Part shown: piece by piece, positions 4,941 through 35,235 of the stretch
Layout: the number at the start of each line of letters is the position of its first letter
Position numbering within the stretch: the stretch's first letter is position 1
Notes under the pieces: generated by a model
Database searches by the model: none
The model's input: the letters and a program-made list of their open reading frames with translations, nothing else
Told to the model about the DNA's origin: nothing
Assembly (NCBI GenBank): GCA_903813345.2
Contig: CAIIXF020000008.1
Location: 6,768,366-6,832,365, forward strand
Source: Owenia fusiformis
Lineage: Eukaryota > Annelida > Polychaeta > Sabellida > Oweniidae
DNA length: 64,000 nt
Direction: 5' to 3'
Made by a program: the position numbers and the translations under genes

Positions 4941-7559
4941 GTGTATGACAATGTCAGGGTTAACATCCACGCCAGTTCTAAGGTATATTGTATCTGAAGG
5001 CAAATTATTCCGAGTAAGAAATCTATGTAATTATATTGTATTATGACAACGCTATAGCGATACTATAACCCATGGTATCAAACAATATAAAAGAAGATTT
5101 AAAAGGTGAAATAAAAAGTACATATTATATTTAACTAGCTGTTGAGTACAGAGTCGCTATTATGAACATGTTTTCAATCAATAGTTATTGTTCACCTGTA
5201 ATGTGGAGAAAATATTCTTTCTTTCAGGACTTGCACACCAAACTTTTAATTTCCCTTGGGGTGGACAAAATAACAATCAAGCAAGTACAATCAGCAGCTA
5301 TTTGAAGCTCGATGATTCCATAGAAAGTTGGATTTTTCATCATATTACATTATAGGTCCATTGGGACTGTTTTGGATTGTGTTTTTCATCCCTGATGGAA
5401 TCGCAATAGTATTTGACGTAAATAATTGATGACCCTGATATTCCATGGGACTGTTATATACTATGGTGAAATTGCATGTAGTGTTGATGGGTATAGACTT
5501 ATATATTTATATTATGGGATTCGTTTATGCTTTTTAAAGATATCTGACATCTTAATTACCACTAGGGTATATGTCTGAAGGCTAGGTGGGACAATGAACG
5601 AGTTCATCTAGAGCTCACCTTAGCCACTGAAACACTGGAAGAGCCATTAAAACAAAGCCCGGCGGAAATTAACAGAGTAAATTGCACTTAGCAACAAAAC
5701 CAAACATATGGGGCCCGATGTATATATATTTGTCAGAGAAGTTACAATGATTGATTTGCCAAGTTACAAAAATGTCTTGTCTTTCTTGCATATTACGCCA
5801 GTCCTGTTACTTCTTCAAAACATTTTCATTTAATTATTGTCATCATTATACCAATTCAATCCCTCACGATACACGTGATACAGGTATATGATGTAAAAAG
5901 AAGACATTCACATAAAACTACAATTACTGCAATTGATGACCCACATATTGCGATCACCTCTCGGTCCGTCGAATTGTTCGTCCTTCTTTACGTCAGTATG
6001 TCAAAACTCGTTCATGAGAGTACCAGTCGATCGTTTAAACCTTTTCTTTTCTCTCGGCCTCGCCATTTGAAAGAGGATGATATGCTTCTTAAATCAAAGT
6101 TGAGGGGAAATTAAATATAAAACAGCTACATCTGCAAATCACAAACACGCAAAAAGACCACATGTGAACACAATATTATGAACCACGATTAAAAATTTAT
6201 ATTTTTCCTTCTATGGCAAGACACAGTAGAATACACTGTGCGACAAAATTATGTTATTACAACCAGTAAACTATGAATTATTCACAATATCCACCACTAT
6301 GCCCATTCTGATTCCTAAAAGTATTTTTCATTTTGGCACACACTTGCAATTTTTCATTGAAACGTGGTAGCAAATGAGATGAACAGTATACAGCAAGGTA
6401 AATTATGTGAAGATCTTAAGATTCCTTGATTTAGCTCAGCTAAAACATGTATTATCAAGATCATTTTCTAAAATGATAAAATTGGGATTCAAAGTTGCAA
6501 GGCCAAAGTTTCTTATCAATACAGCCTGCATTAGATGACGATATAGGCATGCGCAATCAAATGTTATTTTTGCAATGTTCGCCCAAGAGTACTCAGCTTC
6601 AAGAGACACCAACGAGATAAAACGCCATCGTTATAGAATTTTGAAACATTAATTTAAAAAATCATATCTATAAACTATTTACAAGATATCTTGTATACCT
6701 TGAAAATGAACCAGTGAGTCGGACGTTTGGTACGAAGTTGTACAAACCGTTTCCCAAGAGACTTAACATCTAATTTGTTTGATGATTTTGAAAGGATTGT
6801 AACACCGAGTGCCGAACCCTGTCAGAATTCAAAAACCGTACTCTTTGCATTCGTTCAACTTCACTTCTTAAAAGAGAGTTTCGTCTGTAACTAGTCTCTG
6901 CACGCAGGGTGCAAAAACCGATGATTTCATGCTTAATTTCAGTACGTGAGGAGAGTATAAAATATTCCTCATCTCATATTTAATGATTTTATCAGTGGGC
7001 AAAGGGTCAAAATGGCAATTATGTTCAAATCATTATAGAATTCAAGTAGAAAATATTCCAAAATTTCTAACCTTTTTAACAAGGCTATATGGATCAAACT
7101 GAGCTCAAAGGGGCGCTATCAACACAAGGTATACACTGTACGAACTAAAAAGTAAATCACAGGGTATTGTACGCAACGCAATTGGTACGACAACTTAGTT
7201 TAGTTTGTATAACGGTATAAAGTAAAATGACGAAGTAGCAAGTGCACTTGGAAGGGGTGTAATGATAATTAGATGCCTATTGGAAAGGTTGATCTATCAT
7301 TCGGTAAGACTGTATGTTATACAAGGTGAGCTAGAAACACATGCATCCATACAAAAACATAGTTTTGATTCACATTGTCAGAACTACAAGATCTTTAGCA
7401 CAAGGGCATCTCAAACATTTAACCTACAAACCTGCTCAAATAGCAAATGTTAAACACAAATGCCTAAATCTTAACTCACCGGGATTTCATGAATTGTGCT
7501 TCAGGTATACCAACAATTAGAGGACAAAACTATTTGTATCACTAGTACCATGTCGTACG
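4941..7559. other. Gene-free AT-rich DNA with one dispersed repeat copy
   Basis: No gene is supportable. At about 6842-6900 lies one copy of a short dispersed motif (TTTGCATTCGTTCAACTTCA, then CTTCTTAAAAGAGAG), which recurs near 23870, 36065 and 61888. The open frames at 5875-6114 and 7262-7453 are ordinary AT-rich chance ORFs. Confidence 0.5.
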
Positions 7560-7766
7560 CAGGCCCGTAGCCAGGGGGGGGGGGTCACAGGGTTCGGGCG
7601 AACCCCCCCCCTGGCCAAAAATTCTTACAAAATCATGCAGTTTTTCACCATTTTGAGCACTTTTCAAGTGATTTTAGCCATATTTGGGCCAAAATTGTCA
7701 AATGTGAACCCCCCTGGAAATTTTTGAAAACTGAACCCCCCTTGGCAAATCCTGGCTACGGGCCTG
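7560..7766. mobile_element. MITE with CAGGCCCGTAGCCAGG termini, copy 1
   Basis: This is a 207-bp element. Its left end CAGGCCCGTAGCCAGG is the complement of its right end CCTGGCTACGGGCCTG. The interior begins with a G-tract and a facing C-tract that would form a hairpin. A second, very similar copy lies at 29976-30183, inside the Kolobok transposon. There is no coding capacity. The flanks of this copy (gtacg and agtac) do not give a clean duplication, unlike the second copy. Confidence 0.85.
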
Positions 7767-10700
7767 AGTACCCTTATCATAGCACAAATATATCATTGAA
7801 TCTGCATTAGATTTGCTATATGAACACATCATTGTTTCGTCCCCCGAACACTCCATTATCATCTAAAGCTTGTTTTACTACAGCTTAAAAATGAAACGAT
7901 ATTGGTCAATATTAAGAATATCATTCAGGCATTTTGATTTCATTTACATTCCAATGAACTGTCTTTTGGGAATGGCGCTATTTTGGTAAAATGCAATCAT
8001 TTCCTTATGTTACCATTTGAAATGAAACCAAACGTGCATTGCGCAAAAGCTCATCACCATAAGTAGACTAAAGGTGTGAAGTAATGGGATCAGTCCAATC
8101 CAATAAACTCCTCACTAGCCAGGGGAATAAGACCAGGCAGAATATTGTTATCCACAATACACGCTAATAATATATAAGGACGACTAAGCAGGATGAACAA
8201 ATTGGAACGTTTGTTCAATTTTGCAATTTATTTAAAACAACACACACTTTTTTAAATGATATGAATTGTTACCAACCAATAAGAAACGTAAACTGAAGAT
8301 AAGCATCATTGCATACCTGTGATAGGATTTGACAAACAAATTAGAAAAATTGCATATTTGGCAAAAATTATATCAAGAATTTTAAAAGATATGACTGTCT
8401 TATTATTGCGTGTCAAGAATGAAGTGCAGAGTTGTTTATTGTATCGACGATTACATGTATGACCATTACTTTACATTTTAAATGGAGTTAGATATCATTA
8501 CACCAGAATTGTTATTTTTCATTTATTCTCCTGTGTTTAAACAGAGTTATCTCGAAAACACATAATATGTGACTTGTATCATGCTTTGAAACATGTTTAC
8601 AATGCAATTTAGCAACAGCGTGTTGAACTTAAACCATACATGTGAAATAAAACTTTTACTTAATATGTTTTCGCAAGTGCCAATGAGATCACCAAAAAAT
8701 GGTTAGAGAACACAACAAGAAAAGTAAAGGACACACCTAGAAAAACACCAGTCACATGAAAAACAAACCGCAACTACTTCAAACCATACTCCAACGTGAA
8801 AATAAATAGTCTCTGATACCCCCTCCCAACCATTGTTTTATTTCCTATCTTCAGTCACTAAACATTTATAAAACACTAAATGTGATTTACTGGTGTGTAG
8901 GGTGATTTATCAGTTCTTTGGATAGAACGTGTGGATGTTATTTATGACATCGATCCCTCAATTTCATAAAAAAACGTTTTACATCATATCCTCTCTTATT
9001 TGTGTGAATCAAATGTATCGCGTTTGCATTAACCCTTAATGGTTTTTAGGGTCCCCATAGCTAATTCTTTGCAATAATTATATCAGAAATAATTATTCTA
9101 TTAACATGAAATTCAATCTTATCTTCAATTAATTCAATTCCTTTCAGATAAAACAAACCAGGTGTAAATCGCATGATAACTTTTTGTGCTAGCTGAGGCC
9201 AAAAAACATCACTATCACCAAAACATATTCAATAATAATACAGTGTTACATATAGATGCTACGAAATGTTACAAACTGCTAAAGCACCTGGCCCCTGATG
9301 ATTAAATTTAGACATATCTCCTTGCATTCATGTTAGATAATGTATACATATTCTGAAAGGTAATTGATTTGCCCATGTAAAACTGAAATCAGAATGAAAA
9401 ATGCGTCTCTGGTTGTGAAGTTATCGGACCCAAAAAACCTTTAGAGGGTGTAAAAAACAAAAAAATACATTTAAGGGTTAATCAATTAAACAAACATTTG
9501 CCCCCCCCCCCTCTGTTCAACTATCTATCAATGTCAATGGAATCATTGTATCGTGTTTGATATTTCGACCTGAGAGTTTCAAAACGCGATCTCAAATGAA
9601 TACTATTGCTTTTTAAGACTAATATTATTCTCAAGGCTCTTAAATCTGACGGAAACACGTCTGGAATTTTGATATGTTGAATGTTGTGCTAATTTTGAAT
9701 ATTTTTAATTCTATGTCCCAGGGTTTTAGAATTACATTAATTTTGACTGGGAATACTAAACCACGGTGATTTTATTCCAAGATTTTGACGATGTTTTCAA
9801 AGTCGTCTAACGGTGATATTTCAGTTTACCAATACAAAAAGGGGACGATGTATCCTTGGAAACTAAGTGGTGAATTTCAAATTTAAATTATTAGGTAAAG
9901 GATAAATTGTATGTAATAGTGTTACAATAACATGATATCTCCAGAAATCTTATGAAGCGAGAGACGGTAGGAATTTTTGAGACAAATTAGGTCCACTGGC
10001 TTTCGATACATTATGGCTTCCTTCTGCAAGTTACCATTGCAATAAAATAATTGTCAGCTTGTGTCAAACACATGTTAATCCCTCCAAGTTTAATTAAAAC
10101 ACAACCTCGCTCCAAATCAACCAAGTGTCATTCATAAAGGAAGCTGGCTAATAGACTCCTGGATTAAGTCTTTGCAATCTACCGAAAACCAGTCTGAGCA
10201 AATAGCAACGCTTTGTGAGACGCTACCCCAATGATTTGAAACATGTAATTGATAGTGTCTAACATTCATGAACAGTATTCTCAAGGAGCTAAAGATTAAC
10301 AACGGGGTGGAATCTGAGAATATGCAATTTGATTTTACGCCTATTTCACAGAATGATTGAGCAAATCAATACAACCGAAGTCTATTAATAAGAAATATAT
10401 TTAGATGGACTGAAATGAAATGTGACATTTCAATTCTGACCGAACGTCTCTGTTTGATCCTAGAAAATATTACATCATTATCAATTAATGGATGTAAATA
10501 AACTATCAATTGGTGATATTGTAAATTAATAGATTAATTTCGTGTAAATTAGTTCACCATTTAAACCCATAAGATTAACAAGCCCTACGTATATGAACAA
10601 CAATAGGAGAACGATGACTTTATCCGCCAAATTGTGAGACAAATACACTAAAATACATCCGGGCATTCGATAATGCATTAAAAATTAGACTCATTAATTT

Positions 10701-22681: not shown

Positions 22682-24249
22682 GAGGTGAACCATTCCGTAA
22701 TTGTTCTTATATTGAAACTGTATTCGTTTCGTTTCTAACTGTTGGCTTGGGCAATCATTGGAGAGTCCTTTGGGAAATATACATATATGCCGTGGACCCT
22801 TTGGCATCCACTAAGTCTCATGCCATAACACCAGGACGCATTTAATCATCATTCTGAGATCATTTACTCATTACAAAATCATATTGCTACTGATATTAAT
22901 AAAATATTTACGAGGCAGCGGCAATTTTACTCGACAAGAGACCGCTGGATACCACGTGGGAATAATTGTTGTGAGCCTTTTTAGTATTACATCATGTGTT
23001 GTCCTTATTCCATCCCATTGCAATATCATTCAGGAGTACATATTGGTGGAAGGGAAAAGAATTGGTGCAATTTGAGAATTAATGTCAGTTGAAGTTTTCT
23101 TGGTTTGACAATGGTATAAGACGTCCTACATGTCAGTTCAAATGTAACGTTTTAAATGGATAGCATTATATAACTTGAAACGTTTATATAACGTTGATAA
23201 TTACAACAAAGTGAAAACGTTCTGATGTCACCTTTATATTATTTCGGATAGACGATAGAAAGGATTTATTTATTGCACGTTTGTTCAATTCAACCTTCCG
23301 ATGGTCAGCGAATCGTGCATCACGGATGGGGGAGAGAGTATTTATTTATTTTTGAGAAAAAATAGACCCAACACAATCCTATTGTTTTAAAGGAAAAATT
23401 AAATAAGCACTGAACATAGAAACAATGATTTCTATATTTAGTACATGTACGTACATGCTAATGAGCCAAATAACGTACGTTATTAACCTGAATTGACTTT
23501 CCAAACTGCCTTCCTCCATACCTTTTATATTATTACATAGGTCCATTCATGTAGTGTGATGATCTATCGATTGAATAGATGGAACCACAAGTCAGACCTC
23601 ACAACTTGACAAACTGTCGTCCTCTAAACAGAACAGTGCTGGTCTCTATCGACAACATTTAATTGCAGAGGGTGGAGTATGTGATGGTGAATTAATGACC
23701 ATAATTCTCAATTATAATGGTTCGTATTTGAACCCTTCTTGGTAATTCTAAACGGTCTTCTAAACCACAGCAACAATACGCAACTGAAAATCATTAACAT
23801 TCAGAAAAGCAATTTGAGAAATTACTTAATAAACATATGTGACTTAAAGATTTAGGCCATATTTACCCTTTGCAGTTCGACTTCACTTCTTAAAAACTAG
23901 ACTCTGCGTGCAGGGTAGTGCTCCGTCTTGCATTGAATGACGAGGTATTCAGTTAGATTAACTGTACTCATTAATTTATATTTATTAATATAAAAAAACT
24001 TCAAAATCTCATTAATTAATAATACTAAAAACATGTCGATACTTATATTCAAACATGTAGGTAAATAATTATATAGTGAAAATATATTAATCTAAAAAAT
24101 AGTGTATTTGTAGTCGTAATACAGTCATAGTATTTACATGACAATCAATAAGAGGAGTGTGAACAAAACCCAACAGTGAAAAGAAGTGAACTGCAAGTGC
24201 CACCTATAGGAATACTAACTCATCATTAATAAAAACGTCATATTTATCA
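22682..24249. other. Gene-free AT-rich DNA up to the Kolobok insertion
   Basis: No gene is supportable. A second copy of the dispersed motif seen at 6842 occurs at about 23870-23925 (CCCTTTGCAGTTCGACTTCA, then CTTCTTAAA), followed by 'ctctgcgtgcagggt', which also follows the first copy. Confidence 0.5.
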
Positions 24250-24496
24250 TTAAAGGGAATGCGAAGTTTTGTCCCTTAAACTTGATAATAAGTTAGAATA
24301 AAGATACATCTTTCAATCCAACTTAGTTTTGTTGTTCTATCATTAACCCATTGGTTGTTATTGAGCCCCGGGTTTTTGCATGTGAACTGGACCATGGAGC
24401 TGCCATTTTAACCGTAAAGTGGTTCTTTACGACATTGTTATGACGTCATTGATGCCATAGCATTCCAAAAGATTTCTGGCGCCATTTTTGAAGAGA

Positions 24497-27400
24497 ATGC
24501 CTACATGTTTATATTTCGGTTGTAACAATAGACCATCAAAAGAAAATAATATAAAATTCCACAGGATTCCGGATGGAAGTAAAAATCGGGAATTAGCGGC
24601 CAGATGGCTTCATAATATTGGAACAGTAGATCAAAATGGTATACCGTGGAATGTAAACAATTTCATTTTCAATAAATACAAAACAATTTGCAGTGACCAT
24701 TTTCGTCAGGATGACTATTCAAATAATGAACAATTTGTCAGTGTATTTGGGACAAAATTCCAAAAATCAAAAACTTGGAGCAAGACTCTAAAAGCAGACG
24801 CTGTCCCAATCCTGTATAAGCCCGTTTATAGAGGCACTCTGACTGTTTCGTCTACATTCAACAATTCTGAAACTGAAACACGGGATGAGCGATCTAGAAA
24901 GAGAATCAAATCCCGTGTAAGTTTTTCCATTTCCATTAATGTCTTCAGCTTATTGTCATTACATGTATCAACTTTTACTTTCCCATATCATTCATTTATA
25001 CTGAATCTGATTAAATCAGAAAGTTTATTGGCCATATAGTTTCTGAAATAAGGTAAAACAAAAAACGGCCAGACATGCTCCTGCCTGCAACGTTTGCTAA
25101 TCGCGAGCCTTTTAGTCGGAATAATGACGTTGATCTGAATGGGATCTGGCTTTATATACACTACACGCGCGGACTCGACAGAGCAAACCTTCTAACCTAT
25201 ATACGTGACCTGGCTTTATAAACAATACACGCGCGGCCTTGACAGAACAAACCTTCTAACCTATATACGTGACCTACTAACATAGATACGTCACTAGCTA
25301 ATTTGCATAAAGTTGTTGCAGTCTGAATCCACTTTTCTCACTCTAAACTGGCTGTTTAAGAAATGAAATGTATCGGTCTATTACTCCGCCGTTTGGTACG
25401 GGATTTCTAAATAAATAAGACCATTATTTGGCACGCAACGATAGCTTTCCGATGGTACCACTCTCGTAGTGAACAGATTGTGAGAAAATGTGTGAAATTA
25501 AGGGTAAAGACGATTTTTGGAATTTCCAAAGAAATACTGCATTCTGATTGGTCGGCTTTCTTGCAGTCCCAATCCACTTTTTGGCCTCCAAACTCGATGT
25601 TTTAGAAACTGCACTCATCTGTCTTTTTCTCCGTCGTTTGCAGGTCGATTTCTAAATTAATAGTGCCATCGTAAAGCTGACAATAACAGCTCCCCGCTAG
25701 TATCCTTCTTAAAGCGATCTGTTTGTGATTTGTAAATTCGAGACTAAAGGCCTTTTTGAGAATTTTAAGATTCAGTTAAGAAAATATTGAGAAATCGGGC
25801 ATTCTGATTGGTCGGTTTTCTTTTTTCTTAAAAGAGTCTCGAAAATACAAACAGGAATCATTAAATTATCTATTTTTAAATAATATCATATAATATTTAT
25901 ATTTCATCTCCTTCTATAGACAATGGATTTATCATCATTTTAATTTTTAGGAAACGGCAGAATTCCTTAGAGCTGTAACCGAGAGAAAATCCAAGGCACC
26001 CAGAAAGCCGGCCAGACCTAGTGCAAGGAAGACTACTCCCAAACTAGTTACACTTGTATGTGCACTTTTCGTGTTTTTAATTGATACATAAATTACTTAT
26101 GGTCCAAGATATTAATAGAATGTAAATTGCTTTAATCTGACGGCCGTTTTTAATTTGAATGCTATTAAACTATTATACTATTTACGAAGATGTACGGAAT
26201 CCCCGCTGGTTTAAACAAAACAATCTGAAACGAGGAGATAGTACTTGCCCTAAAAATCAAAAAGTCCTTAGTTAAGCCTTAATGTCCTGTTTAAGAACCC
26301 ATATTCTTACTATTGAAATTATGGATTCAAGCAATACTATCTAACATGAATCTACTTGTTGAGATTTGATCAACACGCATGAATTCTTCTGAGAAAATTA
26401 GGCTTTCAGAAAGGGGTTAAAGGTATGTATGTCCCTTGCTGAAATTCTCAATTTCTCAAAAGAACTGAAGTTGATCGAGTCCCAACAAGTAGACTGATAT
26501 TGCAGGGGCGTAGCCAGCTTTCAGTCAAGGAGGGAGGGATCGCCAATTTTTCGGTTTTCAGTCGGGGGGAGGGTTCGAACGTGGTACAAGCAACCCAAAA
26601 CGTTTTTTAAAGATTTCTTTTGAATAAAACAAAAACTAATGCTATTTCCATTCAAAATTGAGTTAGAAGCCTCAAATATAAACATTTTGAAGCTCTTTTC
26701 TTCCATTATCTAATGGTTATATTTCAATTGGTTATGGGGGTGAGTGCAACCCCCTCGCTACGCCTATGTATTGGATAGTATTTCTAGAATCCATTTTTAA
26801 TAATAAGAATAGGGTTTTTAATCATGACATTGGGCTTGCTTTTAAGAACTTTGGGTTGGAAGTAAGAAATAAAATTGCGTCGCATATCAGTGGTTAGCTT
26901 TGATGTAATAGACGCGATTGATGGTCAACCCCAAAATAAACGGCAGTAAAAATTGCCCGATCCGCTAAATTAAATAACCCCAAATTAAAGCAATTTACAG
27001 TAATATTGTCGTCATAACGATCATTTACGATCATGTCTCCAAAATCGGTATCTTGTCATAAACTCAAATGCTTTCCAGCCAATAATTCCTACACATTGAT
27101 ATTACGCTGAAAACAAATAATTTCAATATCATTACAATTACAAATGTCACAAATGGTGTCATTTCAATGCCTTCAGATATTAAAACATATATCCTTCACG
27201 ATCCGTCTTGTGATTTGTATCTATTATCAATTCATATAATTTCTCAAAATGCGTGTACAAGTAACTAAACATTGGATGATATCAATATCGAATACTCTGA
27301 TTTACCATTGATTCATTTAATTCAGGTGGATGCATCAACTCAGACTGACAACAACTCAGCAGAGAATTGTTTGAGATGTTGTGAATTTGCTAACAAAGGC

Positions 27401-29224
27401 AACATTAACCGTGAACATAGCTATACCAAGTCACTACCACCTCCCAGCTCAGGAAATACCACCAACAAACCCTTACTCCTAACATCTACTCCTGTGAAAT
27501 CAAGTGAAAATACCAAAGAAACTTTCATAGAAAATGTTCAAACTAAATCAAGCAATTTGTTTGATAACTCATTCGAATCAATTATGAATGATAGTTCGCA
27601 CTCTGATATACCAAATGAAGACATGGACATAGATTATGTGCCAGGCGATATTTCAATAGAAGAGGAAGAGCATGAACATTTACTTGACTTAGAGAATACT
27701 TCTATCAGTGATACCGCGAGAACAGTAGTGCAAGACAGTAAATACATTGTCTTTGACCAAAACCTCGAGCAGCTTTATTCTTTGATACACTGCCCACAAT
27801 GCAGATCAGTACTCGATAGGCTATCAGTGAAAAAGACCTTCACCGGTAGCATGATATCAATCAAAGCAAAATGCCTATATGGGCACGATCTTATCAACTG
27901 GAGTTCACAACCAACTCTGGCAGGCAAGACACCAGCAGGTAATGTCTTAATACCTGCTGCCATTGTCCTCAAGGGGAACACCTTTTCCCACGTTGAGGAG
28001 TTCGCCGATATTCTTGGTCTGAAGTTCATAAGCGACAAGGTATATTATGAAGTACAAAAAAATTACATCACGCCTGCTGTTGAAGCCCTGTGGCACAGTA
28101 AACGGATCAAAATAAAGGAAGAGATCAAAGATCGCATGTCAGTTATAGTCGCAGGTGACGGGCGATTTGATTCGCCTGGCCACAGTGCAAGCAAATGCAC
28201 ATATACTGCAATGGATCAAATTACAAACAACATCATTGATTTTACATCCGTTCACGTGCGGGAAACAACATCATCACAAGCTATGGAAAGATTTGGGTTT
28301 AATAATATCATGACACAGCTACTAGATGAAGCCATTCCAATTACAGATCTGGTGACAGATCGACATTCTGGCATCAAAAAAGACATGAAGGACACATACA
28401 TTCCACAAGGAATTACAATGAACTTTGACGTTCAACACATGTCTAAGAATCTGAAAATCAAGATTGCAAACAAAGCAAAGTATGCCAAGTATCGGGCCTT
28501 GGCACCTTGGATCCGACTTATTACGAACCACCTGTGGTACTGCTCGGCCAATTGTGATGGTGATCCTAAAAAATTACAAGAGATGTTCGACAGTATACTG
28601 TATCATATTACAGACCGACACAGAGATTTCGATCGAGAAGATGACAATGACTACACGATAATCAAAGAATGCAGTCACGATGACATGGCTGAGGAAGAAA
28701 GGAATGGTATTGATTGGCTACGTAAAGATTCTCCACCCCACGAGGCCCTGAAAGACATAATTCGCTCGCGGACATTTTACAATGACTTGCCCTATTTGGT
28801 GAAATTTCTGCATACTTCGAACCTGGAGTCCTATCACGCTCTACTGAACAAATATGCACCTAAGCGGGAAAACTTTGACATGCCCCAGTACGTTTGTAGA
28901 ACACAACTTGCAGCTTTAGATCACAATCACAACACGAACCGAAGACAAGCAGTCGTTGTTCGTGAACGGCCTGGGACTGGCCAGGCCGGAACGGCAAGGT
29001 TCAGCCAGGCCTATACCAAGGCAACGTCAAGGTATGTTGCGAAACCCGTCAAAGTTGCCAAAACATACGCTTATATGGACGACCTCCTATTGGATATCGT
29101 AACACGCAAAATGACAGGTGTCATCGATCAGGTGGAAACACGCAAGCAAGCTCGATTGGGACCTGCTGGTGTAACAAAGGCGGACACTATTCAAGCCCAT
29201 CGGAGGCGATCTGATATGAACTGA
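24497..29224 (+). CDS. THAP-domain DDE transposase (Kolobok type), three exons
   Basis: Predicted exons are 24497-24916 (donor GTAAGT), 25951-26055 (acceptor after TTTTTAG, donor GTATGT) and 27326-29224 (acceptor after TTCAG). Both introns are phase 0, giving 807 aa. I chose the ATG at 24497 because it begins the THAP fold: C4, C9, C65 and H68 supply the C2CH zinc site, W37 is present, and AVPILY (102-107) is the closing AVPTIF-like box. A basic linker (exon 2) and an acidic Ser-rich stretch follow, then a Cys/His knuckle near 331-370 (CPQC...C...GH). The DDE core follows: D453 in GDGRFDSPG, D520 in TDRH and E676 in NLESYHALL-KYAPKR. These assignments are by motif recognition. An AATAAA lies at 29308. 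It would bind the element's ends and catalyse cut-and-paste transposition in the nucleus. There is no internal stop, so it may be functional. A domesticated host gene is unlikely because intact TIRs and a TSD enclose it. Confidence 0.85.
25147..25274. repeat. 64-bp tandem duplication in transposase intron 1
   Basis: Two adjacent 64-bp units (25147-25210 and 25211-25274) begin with TGGCTTTATA and end with CTATATACGTGACC. Each contains ACACGCGCGG. A further diverged repeat pair follows in the same intron: about 25318-25430 resembles 25560-25670 ('gcagtc..aatccactttt' and 'gatttctaaat'). Confidence 0.85.
26503..26768. mobile_element. MITE in transposase intron 2
   Basis: This 266-bp element has inverted, imperfect termini: GGGGCGTAGCCAG at the left, and at the right the complement of ATAGGCGTAGCGAG. 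G-rich and facing C-rich tracts lie just inside. It is related in style, but not identical, to the CAGGCCCGTAGCC family at 7560 and 29976. It lies within the second intron of the transposase gene, so it need not affect the protein. Confidence 0.65.
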
Positions 29225-29683
29225 TTTTATAAAGGTTGGTACACAATTCAAGGTTTCATAAAATATGCAGAACTAATTGTCAATATTCGTTTGGTCTACC
29301 TTGAACCAATAAATAGAATTTTTGAAAATCGTACCGTGTTTTCTACATGTGGCCAATATTTTTAATGCACGTTTTTCATTTTTTAATTACCTCTTAAATT
29401 GTCGATTGCTGGAGAGGAATAATTAAAAGCGTTTAAGCATAACAATTAACAAAGTTTATTATGCAGGAACATGTAAACATGAGTGAGCTAAAGTGTAAAA
29501 ATGATAAACATGGAAACCCTAAAACTTCATGAAACATTCCTACGATAAAATGTAAATGATATTTTTTTCTTTAAACATAAAATAAATCTTAAATTTTCGC
29601 AGGATTTGATACATTGTTTAAGCAATAAAAATATTACAGTCATTCTATATTTTTAGTCAACACTTTTTAGAGTCTTGACTGTT

Positions 29684-31061
29684 TCACTCATCATCCTGGT
29701 TCTGGCTTGTCATTTCTTCGATTTCTTGATAACCTTCATAGTGTCCATTGCTTTCAGGAAACTCCTTTCGGATGCGGTTAATGACGCAGGCTGGCAAACG
29801 CACTCGGTTACCTCGTCCTAGGCGATGCCCCATCATGGCCCACGTGACAAACTGACGATACGCAGCTAGTCTATACTGCCTTGAATAAATATGAAACAAT
29901 GTCATGACAATATATTGTACACGAAGGAGAACGATTTAACAGACTAAGAGCAAAAATGCTGTGCATTAATATGTGCAGGCCCGTAGCCAGGGGGGGGTTC
30001 GCAGGGTTCGGGCGAACCCCCCCCCTGGCCAAAAGTTCTTTCAAAATCATGCAGTTTTTGACCATTTTGAGCACTTCTCAAGTGATTTTAGCCTAATTTG
30101 GGCCTAAATTGTCAAATGTGAACCCCCCCCTGGAAATTTTTGAAAATTGAACCCCCCCTTGGCAAATCCTGGCTACGGGCCTGATGTGTATATATCTACC
30201 TTTAATTAGAAACATGCAATGTTTGTGGAATTGATGTAGATACAGTATTATTAACAGTACACTTCCCTCCATAACTTTGGAAACGGAAACCATTCGGGTA
30301 TTGATGATTGATTACATCAGGGTACTCAGGATATATAACTCGAACATTATACTAGTCATACTATATCTAGTAAGCTTTACTGACGTTCACTGTTGATTAA
30401 AATTAATATTAAAGTAACGTTCTTGTTGACGTTGATTTCGAACAAAGTTGCATTATATAGTGTTTATGACCACTCCTGGATATCACCTGGGACTAACATA
30501 CACAGATATCACCCAGTTTGGATTGTCACGTTTCCTGATTACTCTTGTTTTTGTATTTGAGCCTCATAGAAGGATGTTCATAAGTTGTTTCAAAAAAGAA
30601 TGTGTGATTAATTGATAAAAATAAATATAATGTACGCGATCGCTAGCCTTATAACGCTCGATAACTTACTTGTTGTTGAGTGTCTTGGGTACCTTCCCCT
30701 TCTTATTCTTGTATATGTGTATCCCCGCAAATGTGACCCGTAAAATGGGCTTTTGAAGAACAATCAAATAAAAATCGTCATGCATTAATATGCAGTCCCC
30801 TCGTTCACTGGGAATTTCTGACAACAATTCCACAAGATATGGTAATGCCACGGTCTTCCTCTCTAGCGGCCATTCTTGGCAACAAATACAATCTTTGGCA
30901 ATAAAATCAGATTGTATTTCGCACTTTTCACACTGACACCAGTCTTTCGACAACATTCTATCTTGTGTGTCTTCTTCCTCAGAGCTAGAAGAATCAAGGC
31001 AAAGTTGTCGCTCTCCTCTCTTTGGATGGAACTGATATCCAAGAACTACACTTTCTGACAT
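29684..31061 (-). CDS. Stand-alone P2X7 'ballast'-like Cys-rich protein, two exons
   Basis: Read on the minus strand, exon 1 is 31061-30670 (donor GTAAGT) and exon 2 is 29879-29684 (acceptor after TTTATTCAAG). Both are phase 2 and the joined codon is AAG, giving 195 aa. The N-terminus is acidic (SSSSEEED at 24-31). The core has WCQCEKC (41-47), CICC (58-61), CILMHDDF (90-97) and a hydrophobic VLQKPILRVTFAG. Exon 2 supplies YRLAAYRQF (133-141), LGRGNR (151-156), a PACV block and IRKEFP. This order (Cys cluster, Cys-x3-His, AYRxF, LGrGnR, IRxxFP) is that of the cytoplasmic C-terminal ballast of vertebrate P2X7, known there to bind zinc and guanine nucleotide. No membrane segment or channel is present, so this is the domain alone. 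It lies inside the Kolobok element and converges on the transposase, suggesting transposon cargo. A possible poly(A) signal (TTTATT on plus) is at 29455-29460. Its role is unknown. Confidence 0.8.
29976..30183. mobile_element. MITE with CAGGCCCGTAGCCAGG termini, copy 2
   Basis: Near-identical to the element at 7560-7766, 208 bp long. It is flanked by ATGTG on both sides (29971-29975 and 30184-30188), a plausible 5-bp target-site duplication. It sits in the single intron of the ballast-like gene, so it entered after that gene was already part of the transposon, or travelled with it. Confidence 0.9.
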
Positions 31062-31196
31062 TTCTATTTATGTTTCCCCCGGAAGTAAGTAGAACGGTCT
31101 GAACGAAACATCTTAAAAATTCCAAGAAATTCAAAATTGCTTCACCCGGGCCGCCAGCTGCACTTCTTACCTTGGTCAATAAAATATTCTACAGTA

Positions 31197-31328
31197 TATC
31201 CGGGGAGGGACTGGTCAAATTTTTGTACAGGGGATGCCACTGACATTTCTTCAAAATGGGACCCACATCTTTCGGCAAAAAGTGACCCACTTCAGTGGCA
31301 GTGCCCCCCCCCCCCGGAGTATATCTAG
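31197..31328. mobile_element. Small MITE upstream of the ballast-like gene
   Basis: About 130 bp with imperfect inverted ends: TATCCGGGGAGGG at the left, and at the right the complement of ATACTCCGGGGGGG. It lies 135 bp upstream of the ATG of the minus-strand gene, in its presumed 5' region. The small frames here (31137-31371, both strands) are the MITE read through. Confidence 0.6.
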
Positions 31329-32339
31329 TATAATCGTGACACGCGCGTGAAAATAAAAATCTAACCATCACAGTTCCACGTTTAGATCTCTATAGATCAA
31401 GTTCCCGCTTCAATTAGGTCTCACGTTTATAAAAAATACTAAGTTTTATCGTGACTTAGAATGGTATATTGCACTTTTATTCATTGACTTTTTATTATTG
31501 TTTTTAGCCGAGATTAGCATTTAATGTATACACGTATTATTTAGACTTGAGGATTCCTCATGATTTTAATTTTTAAACACGTTTAAGTTAATTTGTCATT
31601 GGCATTGATTAGGCCTATTGATTTTGTTTTATTTTCTTTAAATCTGCACCTATTCGTCTAAGAGTAGAAGATCGACTGGCCGATTGTCAGTCTTTTTAGT
31701 AGACGCATTTGGAACTACAAATTGGAAATCTACCATTAGTTTAGAAAGCAATTGCGACAGTCAGGCCTATTTTCCGACGGATACCCTATTATTTAATATG
31801 AAACAATTCATTGATGATACTTTTCAAGTAGAATATAATGCGATTACTTTTCAGTCAAAACCAGTTAAATTCCGAATCGCGCAGCCGATATCTCATAAGT
31901 TTGGTGATATTTCTACCTAGCCTATACTATATCACATTGGAGAAAATAAACACAGTAGTTTAAAAACAGGCCGTGCAGGAATTAAATTCGTTCTTTAAAA
32001 ATATATTGAAACAACCTTTCCAAATATATATGGCATCGACATGAAAATGCGGCAACAATATTAAGCGGACATAGTTATAAAATATCAGTAAAATGTGCTC
32101 TATTTCTGTGATTTGAGTATGACGTGATATCAAGCGACACTTCAGGCATCTATTTTAAGGCATCAATGACGTCATTGATACATAACAATGGCGGCATCCG
32201 CTGCGGTCCAGATATGGGTATTTTGAACTTGAATTATACGTTAGTTCAAACACGATATGTCCCATGAGTGAGCTGAAGTGATAGATGATGGTTATAAGTA
32301 GTCAGCGTGTAAATTAGAGCATGAAACTTCGCATTCCCT
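31329..32339. other. Right subterminal region of the Kolobok element
   Basis: This holds no recognisable gene; the plus-strand frame at 31684-31920 has no supporting feature. Near 32157-32180 the sequence GGCATCAATGACGTCATTGA repeats, in inverted orientation, a motif near the left end of the transposon (about 24440). It may be part of the transposase binding region. Confidence 0.5.
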
Positions 32340-32352
32340 TTAACTACAAGTA

Positions 32353-33446
32353 CGAGGGGTGATCAATAAGTAATGGACGCTTTTTTACACAGACGTTTTT
32401 CATATACCAATCCCTTTGATTTTCTCACCAGTGATACATCATTCAATAATCTATTAACTCTGATGATTTGAAAGCAAAACATGTAATATATGTTGATATA
32501 TCTGTATTTCCGTGAAGGAGGTATAGGTACCCCGGGACCGACATAACATCACACATTCTGACGCTATTTTAGCTTGTTTAACATGCAATGCAGTTGAATG
32601 CAGGCTGAACAAAACTAACCATGATGGTCAAGAATTACACCATTCTGATATGCCATACTTGATTTTGAATATTTTATCATCAAAAGGTGGTATTCATGCC
32701 ACATTCATTTTACAGGGCCCTCTGTATAGGTTCCATCGAGTGCTAGCTACATGTACACATTTCCTCACCCTCTTAACCCAAGATTGTGAGACAAGGCCGA
32801 ATCCATTCTCTGACATGGAAGCAGGATGCAGTGGCACAGCTTGTTTTGTTTCATCAATGTCATTAAACCTGCTTCCTTTTTCTATAGAAATTAGTAATAC
32901 TAGTATATAAATAAATAAGTCACATGTGGGCAGATCTGGAAAAAATGGTGCATTTGCCAAGGGCTCAGTTGAGGTCCAGGGATATTGTATTCTGAACATT
33001 TTGAGATCTTTGGGCAGGTGCATTGTCCATATGGAGGGTGCTCCTTTCTCTCACCAACTCCTTCTTCCACAATATTTTCTCATATTGACCTGCAAACCCA
33101 AACCATACAACACTTTGACATCACAATACTATACTGTTTATGTGTTACCAGTCAGCAAAATATTTTCAAGCAACACAACACAAATTGCATATCAAAAAAG
33201 TTCAAATCTAACTGAAATATGCCAGACTGGCTAAAAACTAAATATGTGACGTAAATGTCAGTCCCGGGGTACCTGTACCTCCTTCATGTAAATAAGGATA
33301 TATCAACATTCATTACATATTTTGTCTTCAAATCTTCAGAATTGATAGAAAATTGAATGAACTATCACTGGTAAGAAAATCAAAGGGATTCGTTGATAAA
33401 AAGTATCTGTGTAAAAAAGCGTCCATTACTTATTGATCACCCCTCG
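32353..33446. mobile_element. Mariner-like MITE with about 190-bp terminal inverted repeats
   Basis: The ends CGAGGGGTGATCAATAAGTA and, on the complement, the same sequence are flanked by TA (32351-32352 and 33447-33448). Inverted similarity continues, with small differences, to about 32544 on the left and back to 33255 on the right. Both arms contain GGTACCCCGGGAC or its close match. The roughly 710-bp centre has frames on both strands (32650-32910, 32694-33023, 32926-33234) with no transposase motif. The left TA is only 8 bp beyond the TTAA of the Kolobok right end, so the two insertions are nearly adjacent. Confidence 0.85.
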
Positions 33447-33674
33447 TACATATGTTTTATTTCAATCCTTACACCATTCACCAACAAACAACAATTTTAT
33501 CGTCTCTTCTAGCCCCACGTATCTCCGGAAGTAATCCCCTTCTCCATATTCTTTATGGTGTTTAAAACAGAGAAATGGGACACATATACCGACTTATTAC
33601 AATACCAGCTGAATGTTAGGATAAATATCATTTTAAAATTTAAGGGACCACTTCCAATCTATTACAACAATGGG

Positions 33675-35235
33675 TCAGTCAGAGTTTAATTTCCGCAATG
33701 CATGTACTAGTGCTTTCCATCGCTCATCGAGCAGCGCTTCTCCATTGCATTTCTTCTTTGTCCTTGATATCATTTCATTTCTTATTTTAGTAGTTATTTC
33801 ATTCGATTTGACATTTGCTACCTCTTTAAGGTGCTCGGGAAGAGTGCAAAACAGTCTATGTATAATCTTGTCGTCGCATAGCTCGTCTTTTCTATCTTCA
33901 CTACTACAGTCCTTCTTGTGGTATCTACTAGTTTCTATTATCGGTGGTGCGTTGTGCAGCGGTGCATCTAAAACGTCGTTCTTGCCATGTATAGACGTGT
34001 GCTGAACACTACCCTGCTTAGTTCGAATACGAGGCAAGGCATATGCTGATCCGGGTCGAGTTTCGCCTAAAGCATGTAAATCATTCAGCGACTCATAGTT
34101 CGTTGTGATGGTTTTCCGTATCCCTTTATGCCCAAGTGCATTGATGCTAGGAGTAGGATTTTTTAGCTTTATATCTGGCAAGCTCGTTCGCTTCGTAAGT
34201 TTGGGTGAACAAGCTAACTTCGCAGAGTTAAGCTCAGCAGGGGGCTGACGTAGTACACCTAAAAGTGGCAATGATTGCGTTCTAGTCATTTCAGTTTGTT
34301 CCTGTGATCTCACAGTATCGCGAATTTCCTCATTTTGCTGCTCTGTACCATGCTTAGAATCAATAGATTCCTTCACGACTGATGTTTGAGCAAATATGCC
34401 AGCTTTGAGTGGAGGGAAGTGGTCACAATCTCGTCCAAGTTTTTGTTTTTCAGAAGTTTCAATTTGTTCCTCATTTGATTTATCAGTCACAAAGTGAAGC
34501 TTATCATGGTCGAAGACACTGCTGACGAAAAACTGTCGTTGTGCCCAATTTAGTGCGTCTAACTTTTGCCTCTTCTCTTTATCCAGTTGGTCTATGATGG
34601 TATGGAGTTTTCTGTCATGCCTGAAAATAGATTGAGATTGTTTCAGATATCTACGTCAAAAAATGCAAATTTTACACGTGACCTTTTCTATAACATTACG
34701 AACTAATTATCTTGAAAGCCACAGTCGGTCGGAATATGTCATATTCCTCAAATAAGTAAAGAACGTTCCACCGTGTATATGCGATACTGATTTCAGTGAA
34801 GCCCAAATGCTTCTGAACGAATCAGAAATGTATTAATCGTGATTGCCATAATACATCAAAACTTGTGATTTTCTAGTAGTTTTGTGTGTCTCTGGGACTA
34901 TCGATTTAGTTAAAAAAATGTGAGTAGGGCATATTCACCTACAGTCTATAACATATTCCCCTGTGGAATATGACATATTTTTTTGTCGTGTTTACCACAT
35001 TACACTATATATAATTACATAAAACATACAAGAAAATTGTAAAACTGAAGAATACGTTACCGTACCAAGGATTTGTCTTGAGGAAGACGTCTTTTAGATG
35101 AGTTTTAATTGGTATTCTGATAGGAGGGTTAGCGACACCTCTCTCCTCTGATCCCGATAGTTGATCCAGGAAAAACGCTTCATCTGGTATTTCCATTTCT
35201 TCAGGGGTGTTGGCCGGTACGACTGGTGTTTTCAT
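33675..35235 (-). CDS. Unrecognised two-exon gene, 371 aa
   Basis: On the minus strand, exon 1 runs 35235-35066 from ATG. Exon 2 runs 34620-33675, after a good acceptor (CTATTTTCAG). Using the weaker donor TTG|GTACGG makes both exons phase 2 and joins to TGG (Trp). I preferred it to the GTAACG donor 5 bp downstream, which would break the frame. The product is hydrophilic, without signal peptide or membrane segment. Residues about 57-90 look helical (HDRKLHTIIDQLDKEKRQKL). The middle is Ser/Pro-rich and probably disordered (KRTSLPDIKLKNP, TRPGSAYALPRIR). The C-terminus is a basic helix ending at WKALVHALRKL. A TTTATT at about 33456 could be its poly(A) signal on the minus strand. I do not recognise the family. 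The mixed composition and 314-codon open exon argue that it is real. Confidence 0.65.

Follow-up and report, generated by a model that had tools for sequence, protein, structure and literature searches.

A Kolobok transposon of Owenia fusiformis with two convergent genes, one of them homologous to the P2X7 ballast

The window analyzed here is a stretch of 64,000 nucleotides from the genome of Owenia fusiformis (contig CAIIXF020000008.1, positions 6,768,366 to 6,832,365, forward strand). Positions 24254-32339 of the window (8,086 bp) are a Kolobok DNA transposon whose ends and reading frames are both intact and which carries two convergent genes. Based on terminal comparison, a 16-bp left terminal inverted repeat that begins with AGGG (24254-24269, plus strand) matches the right terminal inverted repeat (32324-32339, minus strand) at 16 of 16 bases, and the sequence has the target-site duplication TTAA on either side (24250-24253 and 32340-32343). 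The plus-strand gene encodes a THAP/DDE transposase. It comprises an exon with the THAP DNA-binding domain at 24497-24916 (Pfam PF05485, E = 5e-15; donor GTAAGT), a likely second exon at 25951-26055 whose GT-AG joins keep the frame open (3' border uncertain: 26046, 26055 or 26070), and a catalytic exon with the DDE and DxxH residues at 27326-29224 (start 27326 or 27344; Mutator-like, Pfam PF20700, E = 5.8e-9). The transposase motifs follow in the order GDGRFD, VTDRH, FDVQH, CSANC, ECSH and LESYH, with the catalytic residues and the finger assigned by eye.

The minus-strand gene is KolX, the name given to the second gene that Kol0 Kolobok families encode along with their transposase (PMC9587614; Mob DNA 2022;13:24). 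Given the perfect repeats, the TTAA duplications and the THAP/DDE transposase, the first-pass annotation of the window was right to place this gene wholly within an intact Kolobok. A MITE is nested in the KolX intron (29976-30183). A second copy lies at window positions 7559-7767, and the two copies (~208 bp) are 93% identical, with ends CAGGCCCGTAGCCAGG. Directly to the right of the Kolobok is a 1.1-kb stretch (32350-33449) with 195-bp inverted arms that are 87% complementary and start with GTACGAGGGGTGATCAATAAGTAATGGACGC; it may be mariner-like. Farther right, outside the element, there is an open frame of 326 codons on the minus strand (33675-34655), possibly a host exon.

KolX has two exons. 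The first (30670-31061, minus strand, 392 nt) contains the ATG and the motifs WCQCEKC, CICC and CILMH, and ends in phase 2 at a GTAAGT donor. The second (29684-29879, minus strand) follows a TTCAAG acceptor and encodes AYRQF, LGRGNR, LPAC, IRKEFP and GY before the stop. The spliced product is 195 amino acids long, followed by a stop codon, with a GT-AG intron in phase 2. When a few bases around each border were scanned, this was the sole GT-AG pair that gave an open product, so the minus-strand two-exon gene with matched phase-2 splice sites and a 195-amino-acid product, as first described, was borne out. The model is strengthened by L013, a relative found on a different contig: its KolX, 38% identical to that of the window across the alignment, has the intron at the same position and in the same phase, again with the donor GTAAGT. 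The sequence comparison thus supports the two-exon structure. Two other KolX forms of this genome (L016, 1068-1871; L038, 6374-7075) have a single exon and a P2X7-like RHIAYR or RHIGYR motif, unlike the window gene with its two exons and RLAAYR. Judging from these gene structures, an intron was apparently gained or lost within the KolX genes of one genome.

The ballast match of the window KolX is far above chance. Its product matches the Pfam family P2RX7_C (PF20478) with E = 1.2e-16 and 61.6 bits, the curated cut-off being 23.5, and all six aligned KolX proteins match this family individually. In a single-sequence search of the PDB, nothing but P2X7 chains (four distinct sequences, E = 1.1e-4 to 2.9e-4) was matched up to E = 10. 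A profile built from six KolX proteins of this genome matched the same structures database at rat P2X7 residues 465-593 with a best E of 1.9e-14; four P2X7 sequences were matched and nothing else. Against the rat ballast, the window KolX scored 38.9 bits, compared with 6.1 bits for the best of 260 shuffled sequences, and a set of 13 KolX proteins or exons gave 21.1 to 45.2 bits. Guessed splices with weak sites were left out of the comparisons for L020, L021, L025, L029, L030 and L031, and the one for L023 was used solely in the shuffle-control and tree analysis. The likeness to the P2X7 ballast proposed in the first-pass annotation therefore stands on both searches, and the profile search against the P2X7 C-terminus, named beforehand as a possible refutation, returned a significant match. 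A structure prediction for the product of exon 1 alone reached a pLDDT of 36.3.

The P2X7 ballast (PF20478; PDB 6u9v) and KolX share the motif order WCxC..C, CC, CI, R(H)xAYR, PxC, IRxxFP and YxG(F/Y), whereas the cysteine spacing of the rat ballast differs from that of the window KolX. All of the motifs originally quoted for the window protein are present in it, but LGRGNR and CxxxH are features of KolX that are absent from the aligned rat P2X7 stretch and do not belong to the shared order. By eye, the alignment identifies seven cysteines of the zinc pattern in the window protein (C42, C44, C47, C60, C61, C90 and C162). The complete set occurs in five of the six aligned KolX proteins, and the sixth, a partial frame, is without the first three. 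Rat P2X7 contacts the guanine nucleotide through R546, H547, R574, R578 and K583 (PMC7016195). Equivalents of these residues, also assigned by eye, are found in six (R546), four (H547), none (R574), five (R578) and one (K583) of the six aligned KolX proteins. The window protein retains R546 and R578, two of the five, and has a leucine in place of H547. The ballast of P2X7 sits on a channel, whereas KolX stands without one: the window gene lacks the fused P2X channel of a P2X7 receptor, and its 195 amino acids comprise the ballast and an N-terminal tail only, in agreement with the initial description. We put the probability that the locus is a Kolobok with two intact convergent genes, one of them a KolX homologous to the P2X7 ballast, at about 0.92; this figure is for identity and not for biochemical role.

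The 498-Mb genome was searched with two KolX proteins and P2RX7_C, which gave 61 KolX clusters, and with three transposase queries, which gave 71 transposase clusters. The searches were exon-wise and these counts are lower bounds. Before pairing, 14 of 58 and 15 of 28 rows were dropped from two of the transposase lists; these were further exons of, or repeat matches to, loci already represented by a kept row. The other transposase list and the KolX lists entered the pairing complete. A related transposase lies in convergent orientation within 12 kb of 15 of the 61 KolX clusters, the window included. In 2000 random shifts, limited to the 12 large contigs that hold 14 of the 15 pairs and with a guessed length for C6, the mean was 0.07 convergent pairs and the maximum was 3. 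Because of this excess, we conclude that the nesting of KolX within Kolobok is not accidental. The genome-wide check proposed in the first-pass annotation thus found copies of the gene beside the same kind of transposase elsewhere, and since the profile match is significant as well, the lack of a P2X7 match by which its idea could have failed did not arise.

The 15 pairs are not independent, as four belong to one near-identical family and two to another, and the pairs on C2 and C483 resemble two copies of one locus. Convergent pairing nevertheless covers divergent families too, at 14 places besides the window. In the four-copy family the stretches compared are 99% identical and a KolX frame of 234 codons is open in all four; the right ends examined stop at TTAA, with different flanks at each of the four sites. 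In the related element at L013 the two ends, each next to a TTAA, are separated by 8,090 bp and agree at 14 of 16 terminal bases. Pairs within the four-copy family differ by 0-1 synonymous and 0-1 non-synonymous substitutions in KolX, too few for an assessment of selection, and the exon 1 frames of L013 and L014 differ by no synonymous and three non-synonymous substitutions. No second THAP domain was found by a single-sequence search of L013-L031 or by a motif scan upstream of L013-L019 and L038, which was possibly short of the 5' ends.

These patterns bear on whether KolX might be a passenger: a ballast gene of the host that was picked up by a single Kolobok copy and plays no part in the element. 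Such a capture would fit the 44 of 61 KolX clusters with no transposase detected within 12 kb, which, together with two clusters that have one on the same strand, also count against regarding KolX as an element gene. It would likewise fit the stand-alone ballast (ZCD) genes that are described across animals and regarded as host genes, and that are reported to lie near the same two markers in animals from sponge to sea urchin (PMC7016195). Clusters without a transposase may in some cases represent decayed copies, solo fragments or genes of the host, and the shared neighbourhood is an argument that part of the ballast family consists of host genes. Against capture by a single copy stand the convergent pairing at the 14 other places, the open KolX frame in every one of the four recent copies, and the published account, in which the Kol0 lineage regularly carries KolX (PMC9587614). 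The recurrence in divergent families largely refutes the passenger explanation, which we regard as very improbable indeed. The KolX of the window is an element gene, and neither a host gene nor a passenger. The earlier suggestion that the ballast is spread as transposon cargo holds in that the pair recurs in several families, but KolX is a regular second gene and not incidental cargo.

Other features of the KolX distribution were observed. The first 1.9 Mb of C3 contain thirteen of the 61 clusters (0.38-1.84 Mb), several of them incomplete or interrupted by stops, and are also rich in matches to Mutator-like and piggyBac transposases. At L028 (7125-8624) and on C2 (33364882-33368757) the last KolX exon is repeated closely with no transposase detected; these copies are possible host tandem genes. 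PMC9587614 mentions piggyBac as a carrier of KolX. As a second carrier in this genome it was not supported: a PF13843 match lay within 12 kb of just one of the 61 KolX clusters, against a null mean of 0.2 and a maximum of 3 in shifts of the 12 large contigs (71 of 113 matches used). KolX and a PF20700 transposase on the same strand were found together at three of the 61, against a null mean of 0.3 and a maximum of 4 in shifts of these contigs (63 of 115 matches used), and this arrangement is likely due to chance. At L042, a same-strand case, the KolX frame loses the LG..R and IP.C motifs after AYRQYQQW and is adjoined by a different Mutator-like transposase. The piggyBac and PF20700 matches not used in these counts were additional fragments of copies already listed, matches on the contigs C313, C418, C443 and C513 with their tandem arrays, and some isolated rows; when the full lists were compared by eye with the KolX list, no KolX cluster was seen to have one of them within 12 kb. 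The arrays on these four contigs consist of an open Mutator-like (PF20700) frame of 711 amino acids, mostly spaced by 3.3-3.8 kb, with 17 full-length matches on C313 and 14 on C513.

Among the matches listed, none is closely related to the window transposase, the next being ~35-41% identical. The left end of the element (181 bp, 24240-24420), on the other hand, recurs at 92-99% identity in at least 39 other places among the best 40 of 107 candidates. Of six stretches examined, one (L035) holds two complete, TTAA-flanked short copies that have both ends in common with the window element, and another (L032) has 1,081 bp in common with it at 99%, including the THAP exon. From these shared ends we infer a swarm of non-autonomous derivatives of the window element.

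P2X matches in this genome comprise six stretches at one locus (C8, 33.75-33.77 Mb), the sole P2X locus detected. The nearest ballast match on C8, at 31.22 Mb, is 2.5 Mb away, and we therefore found no P2X7-like fusion in the 498-Mb genome with an exon-wise search that may miss short or diverged exons and in which gaps and withheld stretches read as N. According to PMC9587614, KolX resembles residues 476-595 of human P2X7, seven cysteines included, a P2X4-like gene became P2X7 by fusing to KolX, and nanor probably represents a KolX that was domesticated. The opposite order of events, with P2X7 first and the ballast captured by Kolobok from a P2X7-like or other host gene, could be read into an unrooted tree of 14 sequences that places rat P2X7 among the KolX sequences, with weak support (0.546). 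Two observations make it very unlikely: KolX is present in sponges, cnidarians and annelids (PMC9587614) whereas P2X7 is placed in jawed vertebrates (PMC7016195), and the P2X locus of this genome has no ballast match nearby. Most likely the ballast of P2X7 was acquired from a relative of KolX, as already published. Since the tree is unrooted, has a support of 0.546 and draws on the KolX genes of one genome, we rely on published work for the direction of transfer. The link between KolX and P2X7, including the gain of the ballast by P2X7 that the first-pass annotation proposed, is thus not new but has been in print since 2022 (PMC9587614), and the window gene is therefore a new case of an already known element gene.

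As to what the protein does, KolX would be a working accessory protein that putatively binds two zinc ions through its seven cysteines and would work alongside the transposase, either in transposition itself or in regulating it. We see an even chance that it directly aids transposition, and our guess is that it may be a zinc- and perhaps guanine-nucleotide-binding accessory factor. It could instead be a regulator encoded by the element, or a protein that counters host defences such as silencing, and not part of the transposition complex. The separate and oppositely oriented gene is consistent with this, as are the different accessory proteins carried by the Kolobok lineages named in PMC9587614, but no positive sign of such a function was seen in our analysis, and we consider it possible though not probable.

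A more specific version of the accessory-factor reading comes from analogy. The THAP transposase of the P element needs GTP, which is bound in an inserted domain, and is called unique in this (PMC7776569). Because a C/DxxH signature is common to Kolobok and the P superfamily (PMC9587614) and KolX is homologous to the GDP-binding ballast, KolX could supply the nucleotide in trans, and would then serve the THAP/DDE transposase as the built-in GTP-binding domain serves that of the P element. The GDP site of the P2X7 ballast would be the relic of this guanine-nucleotide cofactor subunit. The three of five contact residues missing from the window protein count against the proposal, which we rate as a long shot; if it were true, a site in the ballast of P2X7 would go back to a transposition cofactor. 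Regardless of role, our counts provide independent confirmation from one genome that the P2X7 ballast fold is a regular gene of Kolobok transposons, and its origin and possible ancestral function are therefore open to study in the transposon.

Compared with the published Kol0 Kolobok elements (PMC9587614), the window element has the TTAA duplication, termini of the type 5'-RR and YY-3' (AGGG...CCCT), the DDD/E residues with C/DxxH between the second D and E, a zinc finger between C/DxxH and E (both assigned by eye), and a KolX second gene with ballast similarity. It represents a further family relative to those elements, in a 498-Mb genome. The parts of PMC9587614 available to us hold no mention of the convergent gene order, the phase-2 intron or short derivatives that share the element ends. 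The stand-alone ZCD and nanor-like proteins of PMC7016195 have, as KolX does, a ballast domain without a channel, but are treated there as host genes, unlike the element-borne KolX of the window; the main text of that paper contains no word beginning with 'transpos'. The P element transposase (PMC7776569) and the window Kolobok are alike in their THAP domain and RNase H catalytic core. The P element has its GTP site in a domain of the transposase itself, whereas KolX is encoded as a protein of its own, with a putative zinc-binding fold and putative nucleotide binding.
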